This document shows, in pieces, positions 3,124-24,325 of a DNA stretch of 26,883 nt. Position 1 is the first letter of the stretch. Each line of letters opens with the position of its first letter. The stretch covers positions 1 to 26,883 of the IMG/VR virus record IMGVR_UViG_3300035698_007632. One strand, 5' to 3'. The position numbers and the translations under genes were made by a program. The notes beneath the pieces were generated by a model, which was not told the DNA's origin, did no database searches, and was given only the letters and a program-made list of their open reading frames with translations. This DNA comes from a virus.

Positions 3124-6100
3124 CTACCCAACCTCCACAAATACTTCTTCAACCGCTTGGAACGCACTCTCGCGCGCTTGGTCTTTGAACCAGTCCTTAT
3201 CAGCGTTTGTGAACGACCCCTGGAAGCGCCAATCAGTTTGCTGTATCACTATGGATTTCCCCTGCCCCTGTGCTGCGTTGCGGCTGTTAGCTACGGACAT
3301 TGATTGCATTTGAGATAGGCCCTGAATTGCATCAAGAGTCGGTATCGGAGCATTTAGATTATCAAATATGTTCGCCAAGTCGAGACCGAATAGCTCCATC
3401 AGGTTGAGCAAGCCTTGTGGAAGTGTGTACCAAGCCGAGTCATTTAGCTTCGCCTTGTAATCTGTTAGAAATCTATCAAGGTCTTCTAGGCGCGTATAGT
3501 ATTCTGCCCGCAACTCCTCAGACGTTTGTTTAGCGGCGTCCATAATCTCGTTGATCTGCTCACGGGTAGCTTCTTCTAGCGCGGTGAGTTCATCTCTGTT
3601 TGCAGACTCCAAATCTTTTAGATCGTCATCGCGCGACTCTGACCGTTCTCTAAGCCACTCACTCCATCTCTCTTTTTCATCTGCTCGTTGCTCCGCGTAG
3701 TCTTTAGCGCGTTCAGCTGCAGCTTTCTCCATTGCCTCTTTAGCATCCGCCAGAGCTTTCTCGTAATCCTTACGTGCGTCTTCTCTAGCTTTTGCGCGAT
3801 CCTCAATGGCTTGTTGTCGTTGCTTCTCAGCGCCTTCGGCTTGCCTCCGCTGCCACTCTTCTTCATCCTCTCCAGCACGTCGAACGTTCTTTCGGTGATC
3901 ACGCATCTCGTTGAGAATACCACGAGCGTCACGATTGAGAATTAGATCATCCATTCGCGTGAGGTGATCCTCGCGCATTCGCTGTAGCTTCTTGTAGTAA
4001 TCCTCAGCATGTTCAATTAGCTTATCGCGATTATCTTCTTCCCGATCGGCTACTGTCTCGTTGTAGTCAGCATCGATGTCTACTAGCCGCTCTTGATAAC
4101 TCTCTGCGAGATCTGCAATACGCTCTTGATAGTCCTCAGCAGCATCAACACCAGCTTCGTAGTAGTCTTCATCTATATCGAGCAAGCGCTCCCGATGGTC
4201 TTTTAAGCCGTTAACAACAGCATCACGGAAAGTCTCTAGTATATTTAGTCGTCGCTCTTCGTAACGCTCAATAAGATCTTCACGATCTTCGTAGTAGGCA
4301 TCTAGGACGTCTAGCGATTGCTGCTCCGCGTCAGTGAACTCCGGCATCGACACGAATGGAGCAAATAGTCCCGACTCGCTACCCTGCATCATTTGCTTTT
4401 CTTTACCAGTCATTTTAATCAAGTGTGCTGTATTGGATGCGTACAGTGAAGCAGCGTCAGCAGCGGATCTAACATTTCTATCAAACGACGATATTCCGTA
4501 CATTACATCTTTTACGCCTTCGTGCCACTCACGCGTTACATGAGCGCCAGTAACACTACTTTCAACTAGCTTCGCAAAGGCATATTCTAATCCGCCGATC
4601 GCAATCGCAGCAGCGTCCCCCACTACGTTCCACCAGTGCTTCTCTGCTGGGCCCTCCGGACTGTCTACGTATGGGTTAGAGGTACCCAGCTGCGCAAGAA
4701 AATCTTGGTACCACTCCGACCTGCCTACTGCGTTCGCAAACGAGGCACCTAAGTTAGCTGCAGTAACTGCTACGAAAGCTACTCCCATGACTTGGCCAAC
4801 TTTAGAGGCGGCGCCACCCCCAAAAAAGCTAGTCGAACTACCAGTCCCACTAACGCCCTGCTTTTTAACATCCGTGACAGCTTGCTGACCAGCTAGTCTA
4901 TTTACAATGGCACCGAACTCAGTAACTGCTATAGTAAACTTAGTCGCAGCAGCACGCATTACCAGTAAGTTGCTAGTAATACCAACCCACTGACCCACTA
5001 GCTCTACACCCTTGCCTATAAAAGCTAAAGCACCTGCGATACCACCAATGAGCTGGGGAATAGCCGGTATCTTCGATACAAAGCGTGCAAACTCTTGAGA
5101 CGCATCAGCAATCCCTTCAACTGGATCGGCTATGACGGTTGCCCACGCTTCGCCTACGGACCTTCTGGCGTTCTCCCACGAATTCTCTACACGATCTAGT
5201 TGTGTCGTAACGTTGTCAACGTAGTTCTCAGTTTGCTCTCCTAGCAAATCTGTTGCAGATTGCATTGAGAACGGCATACCTGTAACAGCTTCAATATACT
5301 TCTTAAACCTCTTAGTTTCTGCATCGCTAGCGCCTACCTGTACCTTAGTCCAGGCTTGAATAACGTTGACGCCGTACTTACGTGCTTTTGTTTGTTCGTT
5401 AATTAATTGAGTCAGCGCTGCCGCTTCATTTGCTGTAGCAATAGTCGATATGAACTCAGCTTTTTGCTGCGTGTTGTAGTTCTCCGTAGCTGCAGATAGC
5501 ATGTCAATGTACTGAGCTAACCCCACAAACTCTCCCCCCGGAAATACTATTTCTTCCCAAGCGGTAGAGACCTCATTAGTTATACCCAAAGCAACGTTCA
5601 TCGCTTTATCGTAATCATTACCATGGTCGGTTAGCCGAATGAACATTTGTCTAACTGCGCGACCAGCCATCGTACCACGAACGTTGGCGTTAGATAATAA
5701 ACCGAACGCGCTAGCGATGTCCTCAATCTGCACACCGTAACTAGCTGCCATTGGACCAACCATCTTAAATGCTTCACCAACGTCTTTAAGATCGGCAAAC
5801 GTCTTAGCTGATACATAGTTAAAAATTTCGATGACTCGTGAAGTATCAGCAAGTGATAGCCCGAATTCCCACACAGCACCACCAACGTATTCCATGGTGT
5901 CGCCCAAGTCAGTATTGTTAATCTTGGCCAGTATTTGTAGATCGGCAGTTTGCTGTAGTACGTTCTGCAGATCTTCTTGAGTTTTTACAACTGCGCCCAC
6001 GCCAGCAGCCCACTTGCGAAGACCTTCAGCTATCTCAGGAGCTGTAAAGAGACCTAAGCTAGCTGCACTATCTTCAATCGACTTACCTAGCATCCCCCAC

Positions 6101-9100
6101 TGATCTCGCGGCGTCTCCATAGCAGATGCTGCGCGTACAACGACCTCGTTGAACTTAAGAAACTCCTTAGATGCATCGGTAAGCACATTTAGAACGCTCT
6201 GACCCCATTCAGATATGTCGCGTCCAGTTTCTTTAAGGGCGTAGCTAGCTCTACGTAGTCCGAAGAACTGCATCGTGGCATCGTTCAATGAACCCGATAC
6301 CATATCGATGAACGTAGACATATCCATAGTAGCTTTTTTCGTATCGTTCTGCACCATGGCTATTGCTGTACGAGCCGCCTGAGCAACGTACTGATACTTA
6401 GCAACGTCCGCGTCGGATGGGAATTTGAAGTCGGCTGGCAACGTCCCAGGCTTGATGGAAAAAGCCCCTCCACCTCCACCAGGTGAAGCAACTCCCATTC
6501 CCTCGCCTGAATAGCTGCCAAGTCTTAAACCACCAAGTAGTCCCGTTAGACCGGTCTTCTGCTGTCCTAACATCTGCATTCCTGTTAAGACGCGTATGCG
6601 ATTTTCAGCCGCTGCTATACTTTCATCTATTACACCAGATACTGCACGACTAGTTTCGGACTTCTTATTCTCCAGTGCTAGTTGCTTACGGCCCGCATCA
6701 TTCAACCGACCAACAGAATCTGTTAGCGCATCTTGTAGTACTTTCTTTTTCTCTTCTACAGAAATACCTGCAGCTTCTGCAGCAGTCGCCAGCGCAGTCG
6801 CTTTAGCTCCAATCGCAGTGACGTGCGCGTACTCCATTGCCTTTTTGCCGCGTGCATCTTCAGCTTTCTCGAATATCTTATTGTATTCATAACGCTCAAC
6901 TAGCGCATGTCGAAGTGGTGCGGATGCTTCTGAAACATCGGCGATAACTGCTACCAAGTCGCGTAGCGAGTCTGCGTACACCTTTTCAGCCGCCGCACGC
7001 TCCTTAGTATTTGTAGAAAGCTCGCGAGTCTCAGCAGATTCCTTACCTGCCGTATTGGCTATACCAATTGCTTTAATGATCTCACGAGCCCACTCATTCG
7101 TTTTTGGTGTTGGATAACCCTCCATAGGTTCAAGCTGACCAGCTATTAACCCATGTCTTATACCCGTACCACCAATACCTGATCCAAAACCTTTCGCCAG
7201 TACTTCAAAGAATACTTCAAGCTCTTGTGCAGCAAGTGTAGCAGCCTGCTTCAAAGTATCAAATATCTGCGTCCCACCCTCTTTTACAGGTAGCCGCTCG
7301 AACTGGAAGAGTACGTCGTCAATTATTTTGGGGACGCTTTGTCCTGCATCTTCTAGCAACTTTAACGATGCTGCGGCTTTCACTTCAAGATCAACTTTTT
7401 TCTTTGCGCGGTCTAAAGCTTCAAGCTCTGCACTATCAACCTTTTCAATTATGCCGCCGTAGTGATTCGCGACTTCAACAGCATTCCGCAACGCCTTGGC
7501 GAAATCACGTATAGCATCTTCAGCAGCTTTGTTGGCCCCTCTCTCTTGATAAGGTCCAGCTCCTCGCTGCTCTGTGTAGTACGCAGTCTGTACAGCATCT
7601 GCAGCTGCTTTCATAGCTAGTTGAATTGCAGTTGTGTTAATTCTAGAAACTGCTTCGCCCGCTTGTTCTAGCTCAGGCGCATGAATTCCTGCAGTTATAT
7701 CAACACCTGTAAACTTACTGCCGGCTATCTCAGCTATCTGGTTAATAAGCGTCGCCAGATCTACGTTAGCTCTTTCAGCTGCTTTTGTAATGTTGTCAAA
7801 TAGATCCGTACTCGATGTAGCTTCTTCAATTTGGCTGAAAGCTTTGAAGAACTCCGTAACCATATTAGAGATGGAAGAGTGGGCAAACATCTCATCGTAA
7901 GCCCCTTGTGCATCCGCTACTAATTTAGCGAACACATTATCCCCACCCGTAGCTTCTGCGATCTTATCAACCTCAGTAACTGTAGCAGTCCCAAGCTGTT
8001 TGAAGCTAGCTGCAGCTTCTGCAATCAAGTCGCGTTCAACACCAGATAGCGCAGCAAAATGCCGTCGTACAGACTCAGACACACTAGCAACGATATCTTC
8101 ATGCTTAACGAGCTCAGTGTTCATCTCGGTTAGAGCTGAACGTGCAATCCCCAAAGCCCCTTCATTTTCTGCAGAGAGTCCAACACTTTTCAATATGGAC
8201 TCGGGAGTTAAGCTTTTTTCAGGTTTTCGTGTAGAGTACGGACCGCTGCCAAAGTCTGTATCGCCACCCTCTGCTTTTATTGACGCTATAGCCTTGTCCG
8301 TATCACCTATTATACGGATTTGTTCTTTTACAGAATCTATTACTACCTGCTCAGCGCGACCCAAAAATTCAGTTACCGCTGTAGCTTCTGGAATGAGCTC
8401 TGTAGGAGGTCCCTCTTGCTCTATCATCGCCTTGTAGTATTTAGCAGCAGCAAGAGCCCAAGATTCAGTAACAGCGGTCGACAGTGACGATGTACGTTCT
8501 ACTAAGAACTCACCTACTATAGGAGCTAACGACGCTGCTGCATCGGCCATTACTGCATCATACGCACCAGCTGATCCCGATAGCGCGCGAGCAATAAAAT
8601 CTTGTACACCATGACCAAAGACCTCATGCAAATACGCTTCGAGTACAGTAGATGATGCTACGTCAGACTCTCCACTGCCTGTCGAATCTGGGTCCTTGTC
8701 ACGTACTCGATTAAATATATTTGCGCCCGACCCGCCGCCTCGAAACGTTCTGTACGTACCAAGTAATCGTTTTGAGTCGTCCCAGCTTGTATTTGTAGAT
8801 ACTACAGCATCGGTAAATCCATCCAGAATAGCAGATAGTTGCGGCTTAAGACCAATTAAAATTTTCAAACTCTCGACTAGCGCTTCGGTATTCGTCTCAG
8901 CGTGTCGAATGCTCTTGGCAAATTCTTCTCCAGAAGTGAACTCGCCAAGTGCGGTTACGTCTAGCGTCTTCTTAAGGTTGTTACGTATATTATCTAGATG
9001 TGCCGTGATTCTTTCATCAAGCTTAGGAATAATTGAGTGGCCAACTAATTCATCATAAGCTTTACGAGCGCTGTCAACAAGAGGAGCAAATACGTCTGCT

Positions 9101-12266: not shown

Positions 12267-12634
12267 TAGATCCGCTCCTCGCAGAGGATTTCATTCTTGT
12301 ATGCGTACGCGTCGTGCTTGATCACTATCAGATTCATAGTTGTGCCACCATCAGCATTAGCTACGAGTACTTCATCTCCCGGCTTCAACTTTTCTCCTGG
12401 AACGTCGTACTCCGTTAGAATGACCCACCGCGATGATGCCGCGTCGCGCTCCTCATGAATTACTGACGAACCGAACCAGCGACGTGCAGTAGCTAGCGGC
12501 TGGATGCGGCCAACAAACTCAGTCACGGTCGCATCAGATCCCTGTCGCGCGGGTCTTGAGTACCATGTACACGCCCACGCGTCGCGAGATATTTGCTGTT
12601 CGATTCCTCTACGTCTTATGACAGCTCCGCGCAT
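12266..12634 (-). CDS. Head closure / stopper candidate
   Basis: A 122-residue protein with GGAG 7 nt before ATG 12634; it overlaps the preceding connector gene by 19 bp. The C-terminal half is beta-rich with a GEKLKPGDEVLVANADGG segment (residues about 80-97), matching the small beta-barrel of head-closure (stopper) proteins, in which a 'GD.I' turn follows a strand. Its position just after the adaptor gene also fits. I do not see a diagnostic motif, so the call is by position and fold pattern. Confidence 0.5.
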   Translation of the reverse strand: MRGAVIRRRGIEQQISRDAWACTWYSRPARQGSDATVTEFVGRIQPLATARRWFGSSVIHEERDAASSRWVILTEYDVPGEKLKPGDEVLVANADGGTTMNLIVIKHDAYAYKNEILCEERI

Positions 12635-13329
12635 TGCACTTCTCCATAGCGCTTGGCTACACCATTACGTAACATGCTGGCTACTCGTCGAGCGTTCTCA
12701 GGTATTAGCGATCTCTTCTCCGACCCGAAGCCCTCCGAGTAGTCAGTCTCGATCGACTCCTCAATAGCCGCCGACGTAACATACGCAGCTCGTACCAAAT
12801 CTACGACGATGTCTAGATCGTCAGCCGGAATGTTTGCGTACTGGTACGCGATGGGGCTACCGTTAGCCACTGTGGTTAGCGCATGTAGTTTGTAGTATAG
12901 GTACGTTATCTCTGTATCGTTTGTAGCCGGAGTAGGCCACAAGCGTATTTGCCTGTTGAAAGCTGTCCATTTACCGCGCACGTGCTCTGCTGCTAAGCTA
13001 CGTGCGATATTTCGCCGAATGCGTGACGACATGGACCAGTCAAAGGCGGGATACTCTACAATCATCTCGTCGGTTATATTGAACGCGATGATGGAGTATG
13101 GCGATCCTGCTGGCCACCAATCAACTTCAGATACCGCAAAACAATCGGCTTCAACATCATAGTCCTGCTGACTTGATACAGTAGTAATCGTACCCTCAGA
13201 CAGAATGGGATTGTAGCGGCTATAGTATCGTACCGCACGCCTGACGAACATTTGTAGTGTATCGTCGTCAAGCGTTCGCGTCGTGTATGCGAGTCGAAAC
13301 TCACTCATGATCTCGGTAAGCAGTAACAT
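12616..13329 (-). CDS. Head-tail connector (gp6-like adaptor)
   Basis: A 237-residue protein with TAGGAG 7 nt upstream of ATG 13329. The N-terminal part (RTLDDDTLQMFVRRAVRYY, then a beta stretch with QQDYDVEADCFAV) and the C-terminal helices (VVDLVRAAYVTSAAIEES) follow the layout of phage adaptor proteins that bind the portal ring: helices that pack against the portal around a beta insert. It is the first virion gene after the enzyme cassette, 13 nt past the phosphodiesterase stop. The adaptor call is by position, length and helix pattern. Confidence 0.6.
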   Translation of the reverse strand: MLLLTEIMSEFRLAYTTRTLDDDTLQMFVRRAVRYYSRYNPILSEGTITTVSSQQDYDVEADCFAVSEVDWWPAGSPYSIIAFNITDEMIVEYPAFDWSMSSRIRRNIARSLAAEHVRGKWTAFNRQIRLWPTPATNDTEITYLYYKLHALTTVANGSPIAYQYANIPADDLDIVVDLVRAAYVTSAAIEESIETDYSEGFGSEKRSLIPENARRVASMLRNGVAKRYGEVQCAELS

Positions 13330-13342
13330 AGCGCACTCCTAC

Positions 13343-14341
13343 CTACATGTAGCCCAGGCCCTCGAGACGGGCGAGCACTATTTTCTCAGCTTCGGCATCG
13401 TAGACGTTATCGTCGACTTTGGGTATTGCATCATCCAGGCCGAACAGCTTCATGACCAACGGGAACACGTCTGTGTTGACCATGTCTCCTTCGGGTAGCT
13501 CCATCACGTTATTATGTGATAGTAGACCAATAGTACCGTCGGCTTCATGGTGCTCAAGCATTAACCCTGCAGTAGGATCATGCTCGTCGCGGAAACCGTG
13601 ATCGGATACGATCAAGATATTTTCAGCATATACGTGGCGTAGTACACGCATAATCTCTGAGATGACAGCCGAGCATGCGTTCTTTACCATCTCTGAAAGC
13701 CCGAACATGTGGCCCAAACGATCGATGAATGTGAAACTCACGAACCCCACATCGAAGCCGCGTGCGTGCCGCGTGAACCACTTAGCTACTTCAACGCTAT
13801 CATCCATGACTGCGTTGAACAGCATATCTGAAGTATTGCCTGTCCAATACTTTGCGAGCTGTGGCCAATCATTATGCCACAGTTCTTCACCACCTAAGAA
13901 CGTTCCGTAGTGACTTAGATCGCACATCTCCAGCCAACGTGTCGGCAACGTGTCGAGCATCTTTTTGGGCCACACGATACTATCTGGATGTGCTGGATAG
14001 CCAGAAGTATGTAGTGACGCTACGTCGGGAAGTACTGGCACTGCTGTTGGCAGGTTACATAGTCCGCAGCTAATTCCAGCCTGTTCAAGAATGTGCCACA
14101 TGGTTTTGTCGTAGACATCCGGGTACGTTTTCGGTACTACGCCTGCCCACGAAAGTTTACGTCCGACTACGTCGAGAACGCCATGTTCACTCGCAGGTAG
14201 TCCGGTGTATATAGCGAACCACGACGGCCCTGATAGCGGCACAGGGGCATTGAGCTTTCGCATACTGTAGTCGCGCAGTAGCGGTATAGGTTGTAATAGC
14301 CTAATCGGTGCTGCGTCAAGTCCTACAATGAGTAGCTTCAT
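13343..14341 (-). CDS. Type I phosphodiesterase / nucleotide pyrophosphatase-like enzyme (alkaline phosphatase superfamily)
   Basis: A 332-residue protein with a full set of superfamily motifs: GLD at residues 7-9 (first metal Asp, D9); SGPSWFAIYTG at 37-47, where S37 aligns with the Thr/Ser nucleophile of nucleotide pyrophosphatase/phosphodiesterases; LPASEHGVLD at 48-57; FIDRLGH at 205-211 (D207 and H211 as metal ligands); SDHGF at 246-250 (D247, H248); and a downstream His (H264/H265). The family hydrolyses or transfers phosphodiester, phosphonate or sulfate esters with two zinc ions. No signal peptide or membrane anchor, so it should act in the host cytoplasm. ATG 14341 overlaps the previous stop (TAATG) with AAGGAGA upstream. 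Substrate unknown. It is a rare gene to find among connector genes. Confidence 0.85.
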   Translation of the reverse strand: MKLLIVGLDAAPIRLLQPIPLLRDYSMRKLNAPVPLSGPSWFAIYTGLPASEHGVLDVVGRKLSWAGVVPKTYPDVYDKTMWHILEQAGISCGLCNLPTAVPVLPDVASLHTSGYPAHPDSIVWPKKMLDTLPTRWLEMCDLSHYGTFLGGEELWHNDWPQLAKYWTGNTSDMLFNAVMDDSVEVAKWFTRHARGFDVGFVSFTFIDRLGHMFGLSEMVKNACSAVISEIMRVLRHVYAENILIVSDHGFRDEHDPTAGLMLEHHEADGTIGLLSHNNVMELPEGDMVNTDVFPLVMKLFGLDDAIPKVDDNVYDAEAEKIVLARLEGLGYM

Positions 14342-14976
14342 TAGTCAGTCTCCTTGGATGATCCCATCGCAGTATTTAAATCGTGTTTCACATTTGCTCT
14401 GCGTTCGTTCAACTCCTCAACTGTCTTAGGTTTGATAAGCGCAATTGTGGGCTTTTCAATCCCGTCAACATGTCGTGACTTAGTAGCTATGACACTGAGC
14501 ACCGTCGGGTCCACGTGAGATAGTCTAAGTACGACATCACACCCAAACCAACCCAGCTGACCTTGAAGCCAAGCAAAGTCGATGGCATTCTTGTGCGTAT
14601 CAAAGCAGGCATCAGACAAACCACCGTATAGCTGTTGAACAAGTTGTAGGTAGTGTACGTTACTAGTTACATACTGCTCAACCAAGTACTCCAAGTTCGG
14701 CACCATGATTTGTATGCGACCGCCAATGCGCAGCACTCGCATCCAATCAGCTACGGCAAAGCTCGCTAGTCGATAGCTAATATGCTCAAGCGTATGCGCA
14801 GTGAATATAGCGTCCACGCTCTCATCTTCTAAAGGTAGTGCCTCGGTCAAGTCGTGAACAAGATCTACGCCAGGAAACGAACACATGTCGATGTTGACCC
14901 AGCCGGGAAACGGATCCGTACCGCTTCCGAGATTTAGGCGAGTAGCACCGACAAGCCTCTTATCAATGATTGTCAC
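14341..14976 (-). CDS. Class I SAM-dependent methyltransferase
   Basis: A 211-residue protein starting at GTG 14976, supported by GAGGAG 6 nt upstream. The SAM fold is clear: LNLGSG at 14-19 (motif I), GWVNID with D30 ending strand 2, VHDL at 40-43, LPLEDESVDAIFTAHTLEH at 47-65, and MRVLRIGGRIQIMVPN at 79-94. It resembles predicted methyltransferases found in surface-polysaccharide and phage modification loci. The domain is clearly homologous to the C-terminal half of the adjoining upstream gene (shared WVNID, VD-HDL, LEH/IEH, MRVLR/VRVLR and VQ-LYGG). Gene ends overlap by 14 bp, suggesting translational coupling. Acceptor unknown; a sugar or protein is possible. Confidence 0.85.
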   Translation of the reverse strand: MTIIDKRLVGATRLNLGSGTDPFPGWVNIDMCSFPGVDLVHDLTEALPLEDESVDAIFTAHTLEHISYRLASFAVADWMRVLRIGGRIQIMVPNLEYLVEQYVTSNVHYLQLVQQLYGGLSDACFDTHKNAIDFAWLQGQLGWFGCDVVLRLSHVDPTVLSVIATKSRHVDGIEKPTIALIKPKTVEELNERRANVKHDLNTAMGSSKETD

Positions 14977-16024
14977 CTTTAACTCCTCTCATGACTAGAT
15001 CCCACCAGTCACCAGGCAACTCGTCTACGCGCGAACACCCGTAGTGTGCAAGTTGCCCAGTCACCCACATAGGCTCAACGGTATGATAGTGATAGTCTTG
15101 CTGAGTAGCCTGCCCGCCGTACAGTAGCTGAACGGTTCGCAAGTACGATACGCGTTCATTCATGTATGCGTCTATGACTGAGTTGATATTCGGCGTCGAA
15201 AGCTCAATGATACCTCCCGGCCGTAGTACGCGTACCCAATCTCCAAGCACCTGGCTCGCCCAGTGATAACTAAAGTGCTCAATGATTTGCGATGCCCAAA
15301 TCCGGTCAACAGTGCCATCTTCGTACGGTAGAGGCTGATGAAGATCGTGAATTACATCAACTCCCTCTACTTGCCGTGCGTCGATGTTAACCCAATTTTG
15401 AATTGGGCGTCCACCACTTCCGAGATTCAAGTACAACCCGCCGTCATTGGCAATTCCATCATACCAGTCGTTTTGCATCTCCTGTCGCTTTGAAGTCTTG
15501 TAGTGCTCTAGGATGCACGTGTGGTCGAAACTAGCGATAGCTCCCTCAGCTACAATAGCCATTTCGTGCAGCCCACGCGAGTATTGAACGCCCTTACGGA
15601 ATAGCCGAACGTGCCACTCGTACGCGCGACCACCGTCTAACTCAAGATCATCGACGGTGTTATGTCTGCGTACGCGCATGCCGTTAACGTTCTCGCCAGG
15701 GTCCGTCCAAGAACTGAGATACCTGATAAGCTGCAGATTCATACGCTCATCCGCGTCGATAACCCAAATCCAATCCGTGTCCTCTCGTACTTGCGTGATG
15801 CCAAAGTTGCGCGCCGAACCATAATCCCCTGTGAGTGGGAAGTATAGCACATTTACTTCTTGAGACCGTGCTAGCTCCACAGTGTCGTCGTGACTTCCAG
15901 TATCGACGACGATGATCTCGTGAATGGTGCTGATATCCTTCAGTTGGTTGATTACCTCTACGATGTTGTCGTGCTCGTCGCGCACAATCATGCACGCACT
16001 TATTCGTGCTTTCCGGGTCTCCAT
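14963..16024 (-). CDS. GT2 glycosyltransferase fused to a SAM methyltransferase
   Basis: A 353-residue two-domain enzyme. Residues 1-190 are a GT-A, family 2 glycosyltransferase: ISACMIVRDE at 8-17, EIIVVDTGSHDDT at 36-48, and WIWVIDADE at 85-93 with the DAD (90-92) metal and nucleotide-sugar site. Residues 195-345 are a class I methyltransferase: LYLNLGSG at 197-204, WVNID to D215, VIHDL, IIEH at 247-250, and WVRVLRPGG. The fusion suggests sugar transfer and O-methylation of the same product, an inference. ATG 16024 lies inside the end of the preceding gene (25-bp overlap). The nearest good purine run (AGGGAGG) is about 14 nt upstream, so coupling to upstream translation probably matters. 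No membrane segment. Confidence 0.85.
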   Translation of the reverse strand: METRKARISACMIVRDEHDNIVEVINQLKDISTIHEIIVVDTGSHDDTVELARSQEVNVLYFPLTGDYGSARNFGITQVREDTDWIWVIDADERMNLQLIRYLSSWTDPGENVNGMRVRRHNTVDDLELDGGRAYEWHVRLFRKGVQYSRGLHEMAIVAEGAIASFDHTCILEHYKTSKRQEMQNDWYDGIANDGGLYLNLGSGGRPIQNWVNIDARQVEGVDVIHDLHQPLPYEDGTVDRIWASQIIEHFSYHWASQVLGDWVRVLRPGGIIELSTPNINSVIDAYMNERVSYLRTVQLLYGGQATQQDYHYHTVEPMWVTGQLAHYGCSRVDELPGDWWDLVMRGVKGDNH

Positions 16025-17814
16025 ACTCCGTCTCTCTGCCTCCCTCTACTTCGTACCAACATGCCTCGGGACAGACCAATGTTCGATATTGCAATGAGAA
16101 GATACTGCTTATCCTTACGATACTCTATCTTTGAAACGTTAAACCCTTGTAGAATGAAATCCCACTGCTCTGAACGCATTAGTCGCTCAGACTGAAATGC
16201 TCTCTTATCTCGGTGCACTGTAGGCACTACTATAAACAGTTGACGATGCTGTAGTAGAGCGGTTCTAACATACCTACGAATCTCGTCGTCCATCAAGTAG
16301 TGAAATTGTCCAATAGACAACATAGCTACTTCACTAGTACGCGGAAACGCTCGCGATACCTCCATACTCGGGATCGCTACGCTTACATCACGCTCAACGC
16401 CTGCTTGCAGGTTTGCTATGTGAATACTAGCTATCTCCGAAACACATAGTTCCGCAACTCGTTCATAACACCACTTGTACTGCTCACGTAGCTCACTAGT
16501 GACAAAAGCCGGGAATGATTCTTCCCGAATTCGGCGATGCTTAAGATTGGCGCCGAGCTCAACATCTGGAGATAGCCGCTGCAGCGTCTCTCTAACTGCA
16601 ACACCTACAGCTTCGGGACCTTGCGTATTTATCAACCACCGACCGCCTTGGTATCCCATCTCATGTGCGGCTTCTCGGTTGTCGTAAGCCCAACGCAGTG
16701 CATCTATTGCGAAGTCATAATCAGGAATGTGCCAATCGCCGCCAAGCTCTCGCGAGCGCTCTAAGCTCTTCGTAGGTATTGGAATGTTAAAGTCCGTATG
16801 GCACATGTTAATCATGCCAGTATGTTCAGCTACGATTGCAAATAACCCAGTTGCCATAGCTTCTCGAGGCGTTAGTCCATAACCCTCACCTTTAGGTAGG
16901 TACAACATGCAATCCGCCTGCATCATAAACTGCAGCATCTTCTCTTGATACCAATCCTCCGAAATCACACTTACCCGCGGATCGTCTAAATCTGGAAGCT
17001 GGTATAGATCATGTCCGAAGAAGCCGAGACGAGTCTTGAATATCATTCGGGCATCTGGACATTCATCTCGAGGCAGTGCTTTCTCGAATACCTCGAGCGT
17101 CTCTTTAGGCGACTTACGGCCCGTTAGAGTTGCGAAGCAGATTACAGTGAACGTATCCTTAGGTTCACGCCGAACTGGATTACAATATAGTGGATTCACT
17201 GCTAATGGTACAACATCGATTGGACGGTGTACGAACTCACCAAACACTCCAGCGCACCAGTCACATGGTACCCACAGTCGGTCTACCAAGTTACACTCGT
17301 GCCGCCACTCAGGATGTGCTACGAGTGGGTCTGTAGTCTCGTACATCGTCCAGCCGATTTTGTACGGCGCTGGGATCTTCTTGAACTCGCCCGGCGTAGC
17401 CATGCACACACCAACCAATCTGTTAGGAAGTTGAGGAGTGTGTAGCAGCTTCAGCGTCTCAGGAAGTAACCCATCTTCAACTAGAAACCATAGATGTGCA
17501 GCCTGCACGTCCACCCCGGCTTTGATAGCTGCATGCATCGTATGCTCAGCTGCAGTAGCATAACCATCGCCCATTGAGAACGGCGATTGCCAACCTATCA
17601 TCGGCATTCCTTCAGGCGTTAGCCACTCGCAATTCTCCGGAATGAACTGGCCATCAGGAATAGTTACCATTCCCTGTCCGAGTAGCTGTAGCGCGAGGGA
17701 AGCAGGAATTGGCTCTGAAGTCCCCTTACGTGGCAGACGTACTAACTGACCATCGTGATGCAGTATGTGCGGTACGCCTGTCAAGTTGTCGACCTTCAAA
17801 ACCGACATTCCCAT
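16000..17814 (-). CDS. GT-B (GT4-like) glycosyltransferase with extra N- and C-terminal domains
   Basis: A 604-residue protein with AGGGAGG 7 nt before ATG 17814. Residues about 65-425 form a GT-B glycosyltransferase: GYATAAEHT at 84-92, IGWTMYETT at 153-161, VDRLWVPCDW at 177-186, VVPLAVNP at 201-208, FATLTGRKSPKETLEVF at 227-243 and GEGYGLTPREAMATG at 309-323, with the E310/E318 pair of retaining GT4-type enzymes. Residues 1-60 are a separate small module resembling short capsid-adjacent phage domains (DG-L, P-SLALQLLGQGMV). Residues about 440-580 look like the C-terminal half of a methyltransferase (LSIGQFHYLMDDEI, QLFIVVPTVHRD, EQWDFILQGF) without a recognisable glycine-rich SAM loop. It follows the capsid gene by 42 bp. 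Confidence 0.85.
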   Translation of the reverse strand: MGMSVLKVDNLTGVPHILHHDGQLVRLPRKGTSEPIPASLALQLLGQGMVTIPDGQFIPENCEWLTPEGMPMIGWQSPFSMGDGYATAAEHTMHAAIKAGVDVQAAHLWFLVEDGLLPETLKLLHTPQLPNRLVGVCMATPGEFKKIPAPYKIGWTMYETTDPLVAHPEWRHECNLVDRLWVPCDWCAGVFGEFVHRPIDVVPLAVNPLYCNPVRREPKDTFTVICFATLTGRKSPKETLEVFEKALPRDECPDARMIFKTRLGFFGHDLYQLPDLDDPRVSVISEDWYQEKMLQFMMQADCMLYLPKGEGYGLTPREAMATGLFAIVAEHTGMINMCHTDFNIPIPTKSLERSRELGGDWHIPDYDFAIDALRWAYDNREAAHEMGYQGGRWLINTQGPEAVGVAVRETLQRLSPDVELGANLKHRRIREESFPAFVTSELREQYKWCYERVAELCVSEIASIHIANLQAGVERDVSVAIPSMEVSRAFPRTSEVAMLSIGQFHYLMDDEIRRYVRTALLQHRQLFIVVPTVHRDKRAFQSERLMRSEQWDFILQGFNVSKIEYRKDKQYLLIAISNIGLSRGMLVRSRGRQRDGVWRPGKHE

Positions 17815-17856: not shown

Positions 17857-19143
17857 CTACGCCGAGATGGTGATTTTGGAAAAGCAGTTACCCTGCACCA
17901 ACTTGCGTGCGTAGCGCGTGCGGATGTTGCGCGACCACATGTCGCGGTTCTCGAGCGCACCCGGCAACGTTGCGTCAGCAACATCACGGAAGGTGGCATA
18001 GATAAGCGGCATAGGCGTGATCGGGATATACGGCGCGAGGATGTACCCGGTGTCCGTCATCGAACGTGGGTAGAACCCCATCACGGCAGTGTTTGTGTCC
18101 ATGAACACGCTAGTGTACATGTCCCACCGACCGTTGTACGAACCCATATCCACAATACCAGCACTGAGCTCATTGTATCGCGATGCACCGTCGCGTCCCT
18201 GGAATTGCTGGGACTTAGCAACATAGCTTGCCACGTTGGCACCGCAGAGGATCCAATCAGCTTGTCGATAGCGGGCGGCCCAAAGGAGCTGCTCAGCATC
18301 GATGAACGCATGCATGAGAGTCTCGTACCACTCGCGTGCCAGATAGTCGGTTGCTACCGTCCAGTGCCAAGTTGCGGTACCAGCCGACGCACCATTTACG
18401 ATGTCGCTAATGACGCGCTGGTCCATCTCGCGAAGAATCTCAGCAGCGCACTGTTGAACCAGTTCGCTCTCTATATCGATACCAAACACACCACGAACGT
18501 CTTCCATGACTTCAGTTGACCACGTAGCAGCCAAGATGTCCTTTGCAGCGACGACGGTGGCGTCGGTGAGAGTCATCTTGATGCGCCGCGGAACAGTTCC
18601 TTCACCGGTAACCGTACCACCCGGGAATTCACCTGGATAGTTGGTCAGCGACTTCACGCTTGGTCCTGCGTAAGCGTAGTCGGAGTCGGCCGCAGACATA
18701 TCTTGCAAGTCGCGACCAGCTGCCGGCGCGCCGCTAGGACTTGCGTCCTCTGTTTCGAAGTCTTGGAAGTAGATCTTTCCAACACCACCGGAGCTGAGCG
18801 GCAGAGGCTGCATGGTTGCAATCCTCGTCGCCAACAACTGTGGCCACACGCGTCGAACGAGCGGCAAAGAGTACTTAGCGGGCAGGACGAAATCACCTGT
18901 CCCCTGCGTCTCTATGAGGCCCGGCATTGACGCTGCTTGCTGATTCTCAAAGAGCATGGCCATTGCTTGTCGCATACCCACACCCTTGATTTCGGGAAGC
19001 CCTTCACGATCCTCCAAGAGCCACGCCCACTTCTTTTCCAACGCTCCCCGGTAAGCTCTCTGGGTCTGCGTCAGTCCGGGAAAGCTAGCGCCCTCAGCGA
19101 GAACCATATCTTGGGATGTAAGGAATCCCTTCGGTACTGGCAT
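17857..19143 (-). CDS. Major capsid protein (T4 gp23-like, HK97 fold)
   Basis: A 428-residue protein with GGAGG 6 nt before ATG 19143. Similarity to the gp23 family shows in AMLFENQQ (62-69), in LPLVRRVWPQLLATRIATMQPLP (93-115, like the VRRAIPNLIAFD-QP segment of gp23), in KIYFQDFE (123-130), in ADWILCGANV and in GYILAPYIP near the C-terminus. It forms the capsid shell. Residues before the VRR block may be removed by the prohead protease: L49-P-E51 and L15-A-E17 both fit the (I/L)-x-E cleavage pattern of T4-type proteases. It lies between scaffold and the enzyme cassette instead of directly before connectors. Confidence 0.9.
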   Translation of the reverse strand: MPVPKGFLTSQDMVLAEGASFPGLTQTQRAYRGALEKKWAWLLEDREGLPEIKGVGMRQAMAMLFENQQAASMPGLIETQGTGDFVLPAKYSLPLVRRVWPQLLATRIATMQPLPLSSGGVGKIYFQDFETEDASPSGAPAAGRDLQDMSAADSDYAYAGPSVKSLTNYPGEFPGGTVTGEGTVPRRIKMTLTDATVVAAKDILAATWSTEVMEDVRGVFGIDIESELVQQCAAEILREMDQRVISDIVNGASAGTATWHWTVATDYLAREWYETLMHAFIDAEQLLWAARYRQADWILCGANVASYVAKSQQFQGRDGASRYNELSAGIVDMGSYNGRWDMYTSVFMDTNTAVMGFYPRSMTDTGYILAPYIPITPMPLIYATFRDVADATLPGALENRDMWSRNIRTRYARKLVQGNCFSKITISA

Positions 19144-21856: not shown

Positions 21857-23661
21857 GCATCTGCCTCCATCCGCTCTTTAGCCTGTATTATAGCTTCTTT
21901 GGGATATCCTTGCTCAATCATAAGTTGTATCGTCATCTCGTCCGCTGCCCTGTCGTACTTAGCCCATTCATCTTTGGGCGTTGTTAGCATCATGTGCATT
22001 CGTGATGCTGCGAACGAGTGCGTGTCTGCTTCTATAGCAGCCTCGCTGGAAGTGCCCTGGTACTGTAACGAGACCCGATACGCCATTTCAAGAGCATCTA
22101 GCCCGTCGTCATGCGCTCCTAGTGGGAACTCGAACAACTCGCGTCGTAAACGCTCCTGCCCGAACTCGTTCACTAGAATGTACTCGTTTGCGAACGCAGG
22201 CTGCAGTGACTGGATGCGCAGCTCCTTCGATGCGTTACCAGACTGCGTTAGCGGAATGATCGGTAGATTAGCTCCGCGCTCCATCGATGACTCACCAGAC
22301 TTGGTAGCGTAGAACGCCTGGAACTGTACCGACTCGATAGCCCACTTGTTTATGACGTATTCATCGCCGTATCGGTTCTGTGCGTTGATAATCTTGTCCG
22401 GCTGACGAATCTTAATATCGGCTATCAAGATGAAGTGCTGCCCCGTGGTTGCACGAGCAACTATCACAATCGCACTTGGATCTGCTTTATTGCTCGCTCC
22501 CAGTGAAGGATCGGTAGCAGCGAAGACTGTGCAGTCTTTCAAGCGAACTGCTGGTCTACCATTAAGTGGTACTAGCCACTCATCTCCATCCACTCTCAAC
22601 TCACGTCTGAACGTCCCATAATGCTTGAATAGACGTTGGGAGGGATCAATAGGCTCATTCTGTAGCTCCATCGAGAACGACGCTTCGCCCTCAGATACTC
22701 GCGCTACCATCAGTTCGTAGTACGTATATGCGGCCGGCCATGCAACTCCCGCACCATCCAGCATCTCTTCTTCGTGGGCTTGGTAGTACTCCATTGCATC
22801 TACCTCGCGTCGCGGATTGGACAAGTTAGTTATGATCTCTGTCCAGTACGCCCATAACTCCTCGTTCTCAGCCCACGCAGTTACCGCTTTGAACGTCTTG
22901 CTATGGAATAGAGGATTCTGATGCAACTTCCGTGTTAAACAGTCATAGTGGATGAAGTTCCCGATGACGAACACTTTCGTGTCCTCCCAGCCTGCACGCA
23001 TCACTGACTGGAAGAACCATTTCTGAGTACCGTCCCGTTGCGTATCGCTCTGAACCTGCTTCAAGTCTTCAGGGTCATCAACGATGATAAGGTCAGGACG
23101 CCACTGTCGATACTTACGGCCTCTAACCTTCATTCCTGCACCTAGTGCCGAGATCTTGATGTACGACGCTAGTTCTATGTCTGACTGCTCCCACTTCCGA
23201 CCTCGGAACTTTTCTCCGAAGTCTTCGTGGATCCGCTCGTTATCTTCTAGCTCTACCTTGATCGTAGCCAGCTGTCCCTTGGCCTGATCTTGGGAGTCTG
23301 AGATGATCAACATGTAGTGACGCTTCTTAAGCACCGCGCACCAGAGTGGAAATCCCAGTGTTACCCACGTTGTCTTGCCATGGCCACGAGGCCATGCTAC
23401 AACGTTGTTGTTACGTCCTGGTGTTTCAATGATATGAGCTAAGTCACCCGCCAACTCCCTGTGCATTGGAACCGGCTCTTTAGTAAAGTGATGAGATAGG
23501 TAGAACCTACAAAAGAACTCTAGGTCTACCTCTGCTAACTGAACACGTAGGTCCTTGTCAAAAGCCGCATCGAGTAGTCCGTTCTCTTCAAGCTGTTCTA
23601 CGGTAAAGAGCCTAAGCAGCGTCTCCCGTATTAGCTCCAAGTCGATTCTCTCGAGCTGCAT
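21832..23661 (-). CDS. terL: Terminase large subunit
   Basis: A 609-residue packaging motor, close in length to T4 gp17. ATPase domain: Walker A WPRGHGKTTW with K96 and T97, Walker B LIIVDD at 191-196 followed by E198, and an FVIGNF coupling segment near 231-236. Nuclease domain (RNase H fold): D384 in AATDPSLG, D394, E443 in AIESV, and D518/D519/D522 in GAHDDGLDALEMA. It cuts and translocates the concatemeric genome into the prohead. ATG 23661 lies inside the HNH gene (50-bp overlap) and has only a weak ribosome site, so translation may depend on coupling to the HNH gene. Confidence 0.97.
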   Translation of the reverse strand: MQLERIDLELIRETLLRLFTVEQLEENGLLDAAFDKDLRVQLAEVDLEFFCRFYLSHHFTKEPVPMHRELAGDLAHIIETPGRNNNVVAWPRGHGKTTWVTLGFPLWCAVLKKRHYMLIISDSQDQAKGQLATIKVELEDNERIHEDFGEKFRGRKWEQSDIELASYIKISALGAGMKVRGRKYRQWRPDLIIVDDPEDLKQVQSDTQRDGTQKWFFQSVMRAGWEDTKVFVIGNFIHYDCLTRKLHQNPLFHSKTFKAVTAWAENEELWAYWTEIITNLSNPRREVDAMEYYQAHEEEMLDGAGVAWPAAYTYYELMVARVSEGEASFSMELQNEPIDPSQRLFKHYGTFRRELRVDGDEWLVPLNGRPAVRLKDCTVFAATDPSLGASNKADPSAIVIVARATTGQHFILIADIKIRQPDKIINAQNRYGDEYVINKWAIESVQFQAFYATKSGESSMERGANLPIIPLTQSGNASKELRIQSLQPAFANEYILVNEFGQERLRRELFEFPLGAHDDGLDALEMAYRVSLQYQGTSSEAAIEADTHSFAASRMHMMLTTPKDEWAKYDRAADEMTIQLMIEQGYPKEAIIQAKERMEADACCQIMVT

Positions 23662-24325
23662 TGTCTAATACCATTCCGGCTTTAGCAAAAGCCTGATCTT
23701 GTGCTACAGCGCTCGTGTCAGCACGCTCGTCGTCCAATGGATAGCCGCGAGTATCTGTGTAGCCCGGGATTACATTCAAGAATGCGAAGTCCTCGTACCA
23801 CTGCAACGCCGCGTAGTTGTATGCTAGTGCGGCAACATCGTCAGAGTTGAACATCCCGATGTGGTGTACTCGCCCGTTGACCGTGATCTGAGTCTCGAAC
23901 TTCCCAGAGCGCTTATGCTTCCACACACCCTTGTATGGCGATGTGACGCCATCGCGCCTCTTTGCTACGTTGTGCGCATTTTGCTGGTGTGTACAAACTC
24001 GCAAGTTCTCATGGCGGTTGTCCAATGAGTTCCCGTTGATATGGTCAACCTTTAAGTCTGCGTCGAAACACTCAGCTACTTGCCGGTGCATTTGGATCTT
24101 TCCCCCGCCTGTCTTCCACCGCGTAGCGACTCCGTACCCTGACTTGTCCGATGTGTACTGCCACTTGTTCCGCGATAGTTCCCACCAGCGATCTTCATCA
24201 ACGATCGCATAGCGTCCTCGAGTCAGCCAGATGTACGTGGAACCCTCGGGCACAGGGGGAGGGGTTTTATCCTGGTCGCGCGTATGTATAGAGCGCTCTA
24301 CAATTGCTCCGTGTACTTGTGTCAT
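23612..24325 (-). CDS. HNH endonuclease with AP2 DNA-binding domain
   Basis: A 237-residue protein with GGAGG 9 nt before ATG 24325. The HNH core is at residues about 78-119: MHRQVAECF, then KVDHINGNSLDNRHENL with the DH-x-N-x-x-x-DNR-x-ENL signature of HNH_3 nucleases, then THQQNAHN. Residues about 130-183 are an AP2-like domain (YKGVWKHKRSGKFETQI, HIGMFNSDDVAALAYNYAA). Free-standing HNH-AP2 proteins are usually homing endonucleases, but HNH nucleases beside terminase genes can also be needed for cos cleavage and packaging. Its start follows the hairpin-rich spacer, and its end overlaps terL by 50 bp, which suggests it is integrated in the operon's translation. Confidence 0.9.
   Translation of the reverse strand: MTQVHGAIVERSIHTRDQDKTPPPVPEGSTYIWLTRGRYAIVDEDRWWELSRNKWQYTSDKSGYGVATRWKTGGGKIQMHRQVAECFDADLKVDHINGNSLDNRHENLRVCTHQQNAHNVAKRRDGVTSPYKGVWKHKRSGKFETQITVNGRVHHIGMFNSDDVAALAYNYAALQWYEDFAFLNVIPGYTDTRGYPLDDERADTSAVAQDQAFAKAGMVLDNAARENRLGANTGDAA
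24251..24264. repeat. 14-mer CACAGGGGGAGGGG, copy 3 of 3
   Basis: Lies in the N-terminal linker of the HNH-AP2 gene, coding for TPPPVP. Confidence 0.8.

Follow-up and report, generated by a model that had tools for sequence, protein, structure and literature searches.

A fixed glycosyltransferase behind the capsid gene and a variable enzyme cassette that probably glycosylates the virion in a clade of tailed phages

Only a handful of cultured phages are documented to glycosylate their capsids, a trait that tends to be regarded as an occasional extra. What, then, are two glycosyltransferases (GTs), a methyltransferase and a phosphodiesterase doing inside the head gene block of a tailed phage? 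The window analyzed here is the IMG/VR virus record IMGVR_UViG_3300035698_007632 (26,883 bases), in which four overlapping enzyme genes sit between the gene for the major capsid protein (MCP) and the gene for the head-tail adaptor (13343-17814, minus strand). Behind the MCP gene (Gp23 type, 428 amino acids, 17857..19143, minus strand; Pfam Gp23 1.9e-29, PHROG 138 major head protein 9.6e-31) lies GT1, a putative 604-residue GT4-type (GT-B) glycosyltransferase identified by its AlphaFold2 model, Foldseek and its conserved place (16000..17814). It is followed, on the same strand, by a fusion of a GT2 glycosyltransferase and a methyltransferase (GT2-MT, 14963..16024; Pfam Glycos_transf_2 and Methyltransf_11), a stand-alone methyltransferase with a GTG start (MT, 14341..14976; Methyltransf_11 1.7e-7) and a predicted type I phosphodiesterase of the alkaline phosphatase superfamily (PDE, 13343..14341; Phosphodiest 1e-9). 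GT1 and GT2-MT overlap by 25 bp, GT2-MT and MT by 14 bp, MT and PDE meet in TAATG, and a gap of 13 nt separates PDE from the SU10-type adaptor gene (12616..13329, minus strand; SU10_adaptor 1.5e-8). A first-pass annotation had described this order, strand and spacing, and the open reading frame (ORF) coordinates and the Pfam and PHROG matches agree with it.

We consider it probable that the four genes, co-expressed with the head genes, form a cassette for virion glycosylation, which places a methylated glycan on the capsid or on another virion protein. We base this reading on the fixed position of GT1 behind the MCP, its co-inheritance with the head genes, the recurrence of the slot in prophages, the lack of membrane segments in the enzymes and the precedent of the mycobacteriophage Corndog.

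A fixed gene with variable companions

As a fair test of linkage, we used IMG/VR contigs found by the MCP alone, with the enzymes not consulted; relatives carry L-numbers and are IMG/VR or metagenome-assembled genome (MAG) contigs. Nineteen contigs encode an MCP with at least 38% identity to that of the window, and the removal of one that ends inside the MCP leaves 18 (38-75% identity). GT1, or its beginning, comes next after the MCP in 18/18 contigs that read past the MCP end, with only homing endonucleases (LAGLIDADG or HNH) sometimes intervening. Genes of the latter kind, typed from their sequence, are found at L009:5943-6407, L010:1279-1740, L049:9392-9778 and L057:4324-4797. The MCP tree is deep, with path lengths of more than one change per site, and the distances among GT1 proteins correlate with those of the MCP (rho 0.43), the adaptor (0.61) and the protease (0.51; 0/200 Mantel permutations each), a degree of correlation that resembles that of the head genes with one another.

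The first-pass annotation had proposed conserved co-occurrence of all four genes beside a gp23-like capsid gene as a check. GT1 passes it, but the set as a whole does not: GT2, MT and PDE come and go, and the full four-gene set is found only in the window and L002. The GT2-MT fusion is confined to the window, L002, L030 and L035, and a PDE gene is present in four contigs, the copies in L030 and L032 having been found through gene order. Because GT1 follows the MCP in every case while the four-gene set, the PDE and the fusion are sparse, GT1 is a fixed gene of the head module, and GT2, MT and PDE are a variable, lineage-specific cassette. L002 repeats the arrangement of the window with all four proteins at 52-65% identity, and divergence at third codon positions runs at about double the rate of that at first and second positions. 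The four genes are under purifying selection, and their recurrence in L002 with this pattern of divergence indicates that the arrangement is more than chance. We note that L035 contains an apparent MCP-GT1 fusion ORF of 968 amino acids (5226-8132); by comparison with L004, the boundary between the two genes is lost to an in-frame deletion of ∼150 bp, and we set the fusion aside as a probable assembly or strain artefact.

Where the adaptor is in view, the contents of the slot between it and the MCP can be read directly. GT1 stands alone in L007, L031, L037, L046 and L053, most relatives have GT1 plus GT2, and larger sets occur in the window, L002 and L030. The slot of L030 (9843-12353) has two additional genes separating GT2-MT from PDE, for a radical SAM-SPASM enzyme and a methyltransferase of the Methyltransf_24 family, and next comes a gp80 fibre-like gene. 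In the distant sister phages L059 (11136-14054) and L060 (11094-12197), the slot between a Gp23-type MCP gene and the adaptor gene is filled by GT9 (heptosyltransferase-like) enzymes, and L061 (11915-17081) has, behind its MCP, a GT4, a GDP-mannose dehydratase-like epimerase, a sugar nucleotidyltransferase, a GT2-like gene and an aminotransferase-like gene, the last assigned by eye; as annotated from sequence, this capsid slot would hold an almost complete sugar-nucleotide set. In larger relatives, the number of GT2 matches is four to six, and some of these genomes also encode an epimerase.

Such variety could also mean that only GT1 acts on virion proteins and that MT and PDE are passengers in a tolerated insertion site, with unrelated tasks in nucleotide or S-adenosylmethionine (SAM) metabolism or in counter-defence. 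That the slot in relatives also takes homing endonucleases, the radical SAM enzyme, fibre-like genes and other proteins fits this explanation, as does the restriction of the PDE to four contigs. However, the inserted genes are mostly of glycan type (GT2, GT9, sugar-nucleotide enzymes), the genes of the window overlap, and in L002 the whole set of four has been retained under purifying selection; we regard passengers as unlikely.

Domains and motifs of the four enzymes

GT1 consists of three parts, the central one being a GT-B catalytic part (residues 57-412; 16579..17646, minus strand) with an EX7E motif at E310-E318, both glutamates of which are invariant across 27 aligned GT1 sequences. Its match to Pfam Glycos_transf_1 (5e-5) is just below the curated cut-off in the window and above it in L005, L007 and L061. 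The AlphaFold2 model is confident (predicted local distance difference test (pLDDT) score 88.9, predicted template modelling (pTM) score 0.87), and the best PDB structures in a Foldseek search are GT4-type enzymes, namely, the chlorovirus protein B736L (3oy2), MshA, BshA and PglA. Taken together, the modelled fold and the EX7E motif assign GT1 to the GT4-type GT-B glycosyltransferases. The small N-terminal domain (residues 1-56; 17647..17814, minus strand) is kept in the GT1 alignment of the clade; its hidden Markov model (HMM) matches GT1 proteins only, and a comparison with PHROGs gave no match at E ≤ 1. A stand-alone small gene before the adaptor in L059 and L060 resembles this domain by eye, but the hhalign probability is only 19%, and we therefore claim neither homology nor a docking role.

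The third part of GT1 is a C-terminal class I methyltransferase-like domain (residues 417-577; 16084..16566, minus strand), whose profile matches SAM methyltransferases in the PDB. SAM motif I (D-x-G-x-G, e.g., DIGVGDG) is clear in relatives that lack the GT2-MT fusion. In the alignment, it is absent from the window, L002 and L030, so that the domain of the window does not qualify as a class I SAM methyltransferase, and it looks aberrant in L035. These are the same four contigs whose GT2 carries its own methyltransferase, and in the MCP tree they form one group (support 90/74, or 100/99 without L035). It looks like the methylation step was handed over in the subclade of the window, with GT1 losing its SAM motif and GT2 gaining a methyltransferase. 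Since the four contigs form a single group, the hand-over counts as one evolutionary event and not as repeated evidence; as it rests on one clade, we attach no statistic to it.

GT2-MT has a GT2 domain (15455..16024, minus strand; Glycos_transf_2 7.9e-15, above the cut-off) with a DXD motif at residues 90-92 (D90-A-D92), which places it among the GT2 (GT-A) enzymes; phrog_841 (GtrB-like) and other moron GT profiles also match it. The fused methyltransferase domain (14966..15439, minus strand; Methyltransf_11 8.6e-7) and the stand-alone MT both have the motif I sequence LNLGSG of class I SAM methyltransferases, and MT is a paralogue of the fused domain, ∼41% identical in the alignment.

PDE matches PF01663 above the cut-off and has the ligands of a two-metal site together with a Ser/Thr nucleophile, from which its activity is predicted; the aligned residues are D9, S37, D207, H211, D247, H248 and H265, with S37 aligning to the nucleophile region of NPP7. 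No signal peptide or membrane segment is evident from its hydropathy. The structure model of PDE was poor (pLDDT 54) and was left out of the fold search. Neither tblastn against 50,697 phage records nor pattern scanning across IMG/VR found PDE relatives beyond L002. The family membership of PDE is what would suggest a phosphodiester-linked glycan. In a MAG contig showing no phage head genes (L135:5553-6947), a PDE-like gene lies beside a GT4 gene and sugar-nucleotide genes. The earlier statement that the catalytic motifs of all four proteins are intact thus holds for EX7E, DXD, LNLGSG and the PDE ligands, but not for the C-terminal domain of GT1, a fifth domain that had been overlooked and that is without SAM motif I.

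The slot in prophages and in known viruses

We looked for GT1 relatives in 84,980 species genomes of bacteria and archaea and obtained 11 loci; the MAGs behind 9 of these are labelled Anaerolineae, Anaerolineales, Anaerolineaceae or Aggregatilineales (Chloroflexota). In 8 of the 11, including one in a MAG labelled Gammaproteobacteria (L133), the GT4 relative occupies exactly the position between MCP and connector, mostly with a tape-measure match downstream. These prophages share with the window a homologous GT domain in the same slot, whereas their GT is mostly 330-400 amino acids long without a methyltransferase domain. Because their MCPs belong to phrog_3990 or phrog_3116/PF25209 and not to Gp23, the slot recurs behind three MCP families. 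The GT1 alignment gave matches at E ≤ 1e-20 in 34 of the 400 genomes taken from the phylum to which an Anaerolineae MAG belongs (best 217 bits), and in 17 of 398 from the phylum of the MAG labelled Gammaproteobacteria (best 117 bits). The window-type MCP is essentially missing from the former set (one weak match), so that a Chloroflexota host of the window phage is a lead only.

The nearest case among cultured phages is that of the Arthrobacter phages Kitkat and DanielleIgnace, where a GT4 gene follows the MCP at a distance of a few genes. As in the window, a related (predicted) GT4 gene lies in the structural module of Kelleziovirus/DanielleIgnace; unlike in the window, it sits behind connectors and has no methyltransferase or PDE alongside. 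In Streptomyces phages, the related GT is outside the head block.

The nearest precedent from experiment is Corndog (cluster O), in which an O-methyltransferase, two GTs and a GlcNAc-transferase (gp35-gp38) are encoded between portal and protease (PMC4351075), and complex methyl and glycan modification of the capsid is predicted (PMC4351075, PMC12363180). Virion glycosylation of Che8, Corndog and Myrna is reported in PMC12363180 and PMC12619734, citing Freeman 2023. GT and methyltransferase genes within the head operon, a feature of phages of the Corndog and Che8 kind, are present in the window as well; the window differs in having them between MCP and adaptor and in its clade-fixed GT4-methyltransferase protein, GT2-MT fusion and PDE. 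A tblastn search of phages with GT1 and GT2-MT counted no mycobacteriophage, although no direct homology comparison with gp35-gp38 was made. In the chlorovirus PBCV-1, a multidomain GT-methyltransferase protein and a second methyltransferase (A064R/A061L) build a methylated capsid glycan (PMC9614988), a virus-encoded pairing of the kind seen in the window. PBCV-1 is, however, a eukaryotic virus, domain 1 of A064R is of GT-A type, there is no operon with the capsid gene, and B736L, the best PDB match of GT1, is a different protein from a different chlorovirus than A064R; the chlorovirus likeness is one of analogy, not membership.

Virion glycan or another target

How might the cassette work? 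Expression alongside the head genes would give a cytosolic GT1 access to newly made virion protein. GT1 could transfer a sugar from a nucleotide-sugar donor to new capsid protein or to a virion protein made with it, or extend an existing sugar; GT2-MT would then add and O-methylate a second sugar, and the paralogous MT might add another methyl group. The PDE, likewise cytosolic, could add, trim, transfer or recycle a phospho-group, or remove an inhibitory nucleotide by-product. In this scheme, we infer the virion protein as acceptor, the order of the steps, the identity of the sugars and the role of the PDE.

Several points weigh against virion glycosylation. The position of a gene shows co-expression and co-inheritance, not substrate, and no acceptor site can be named. 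The clade is known from its genes alone, with no member known to be cultured. Some of the 18 contigs are near-identical, so that 18/18 overstates the number of independent cases, and the HMMs used detect no GT in the slot of L062 and L065, which have Gp23-type MCPs of ∼27% identity. Nor is it obvious what the PDE would do in a simple pathway of protein glycosylation.

The first-pass annotation had left two targets for a late methylated-glycan pathway, the capsid and the host surface. Modification of the host envelope during infection, which as in serotype conversion could mask receptors or exclude superinfecting phages, draws on the GtrB-like phrog_841 and moron GT matches of the GT2 domain. 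It draws also on the closest chromosomal relatives of GT1, which are parts of multidomain GT proteins of 650-860 amino acids or more (GT-B plus GT2) from the phylum of the Anaerolineae MAG (L142-L149); these are probably surface-polysaccharide enzymes, and the phage gene may have come from them. However, genes for serotype conversion are usually found close to att sites, whereas the slot is inside the head operon and GT1 is co-inherited with the head genes. None of the four enzymes has a membrane segment (maximum 19-residue hydropathy 1.07-1.44), and there is no GtrA flippase gene between MCP and adaptor, so that the gtrABC pattern is missing. Since neither a membrane segment nor a GtrA/GtrB-type partner was seen, we find the host surface an improbable target, and the capsid or another virion protein, given the fixed GT1 and the prophage slot, the best-supported one. 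Decoration of phage DNA bases against restriction, for which phage GTs are well known and recently also include diverse GTs (Pyle 2024, as cited in PMC12619734), is very unlikely, given that the slot lies behind the MCP and not among replication genes and that 12 related contigs (six of 50-70 kb, none known complete) have no match to PF00303 (thymidylate synthase/hydroxymethylase; found in 9/14 control genomes) or to Tet_JBP, a search that had no positive control. We judged each of the three alternatives less likely than a virion-glycosylation cassette.

That every close relative found shares the core enzyme at this place suggests that these viruses cover their own particles with methylated sugars. 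Throughout this deep clade, the GT has the character of a core head gene, and the slot behind unrelated capsid proteins is taken by an enzyme related to it. Whether, and why, a glycan serves particle maturation or protection in these phages thus becomes directly testable; the gene order can serve as a signature by which metagenomes are searched for virion glycosylation, and the GT-methyltransferase fusions are new objects of study. We also put forward, tentatively and with some doubt, a broader idea: that a large group of uncultured Chloroflexota phages reserves the MCP-connector slot as a glycan-coat locus, in which an obligatory capsid-linked GT4-methyltransferase is joined by exchangeable GT2, GT9, methyltransferase, radical SAM, phosphodiesterase and sugar-nucleotide genes. 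Capsid glycans would then differ by lineage, as O-antigen loci do in bacteria, possibly with phospho-linked methylated sugars unseen on any virus.

The remaining genes of the window with recognized families are also all on the minus strand and follow the order of a tailed-phage late operon: a small-terminase-like gene (labelled by position, as a guess), an HNH gene, large terminase, portal, protease, MCP and the four enzymes, and then the adaptor, small connector and tail genes, tail tube, tape measure and a tail protein, the tail genes being named partly from size and order. The HNH endonuclease gene (23612-24325) overlaps the start of the large terminase gene; it is conserved in L002, with 79% protein identity, and L030 shows it too. 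In L037 (3084-6098), the large terminase ORF is 1004 amino acids long, compared with ∼600 elsewhere in the clade, possibly owing to an intein or insertion.

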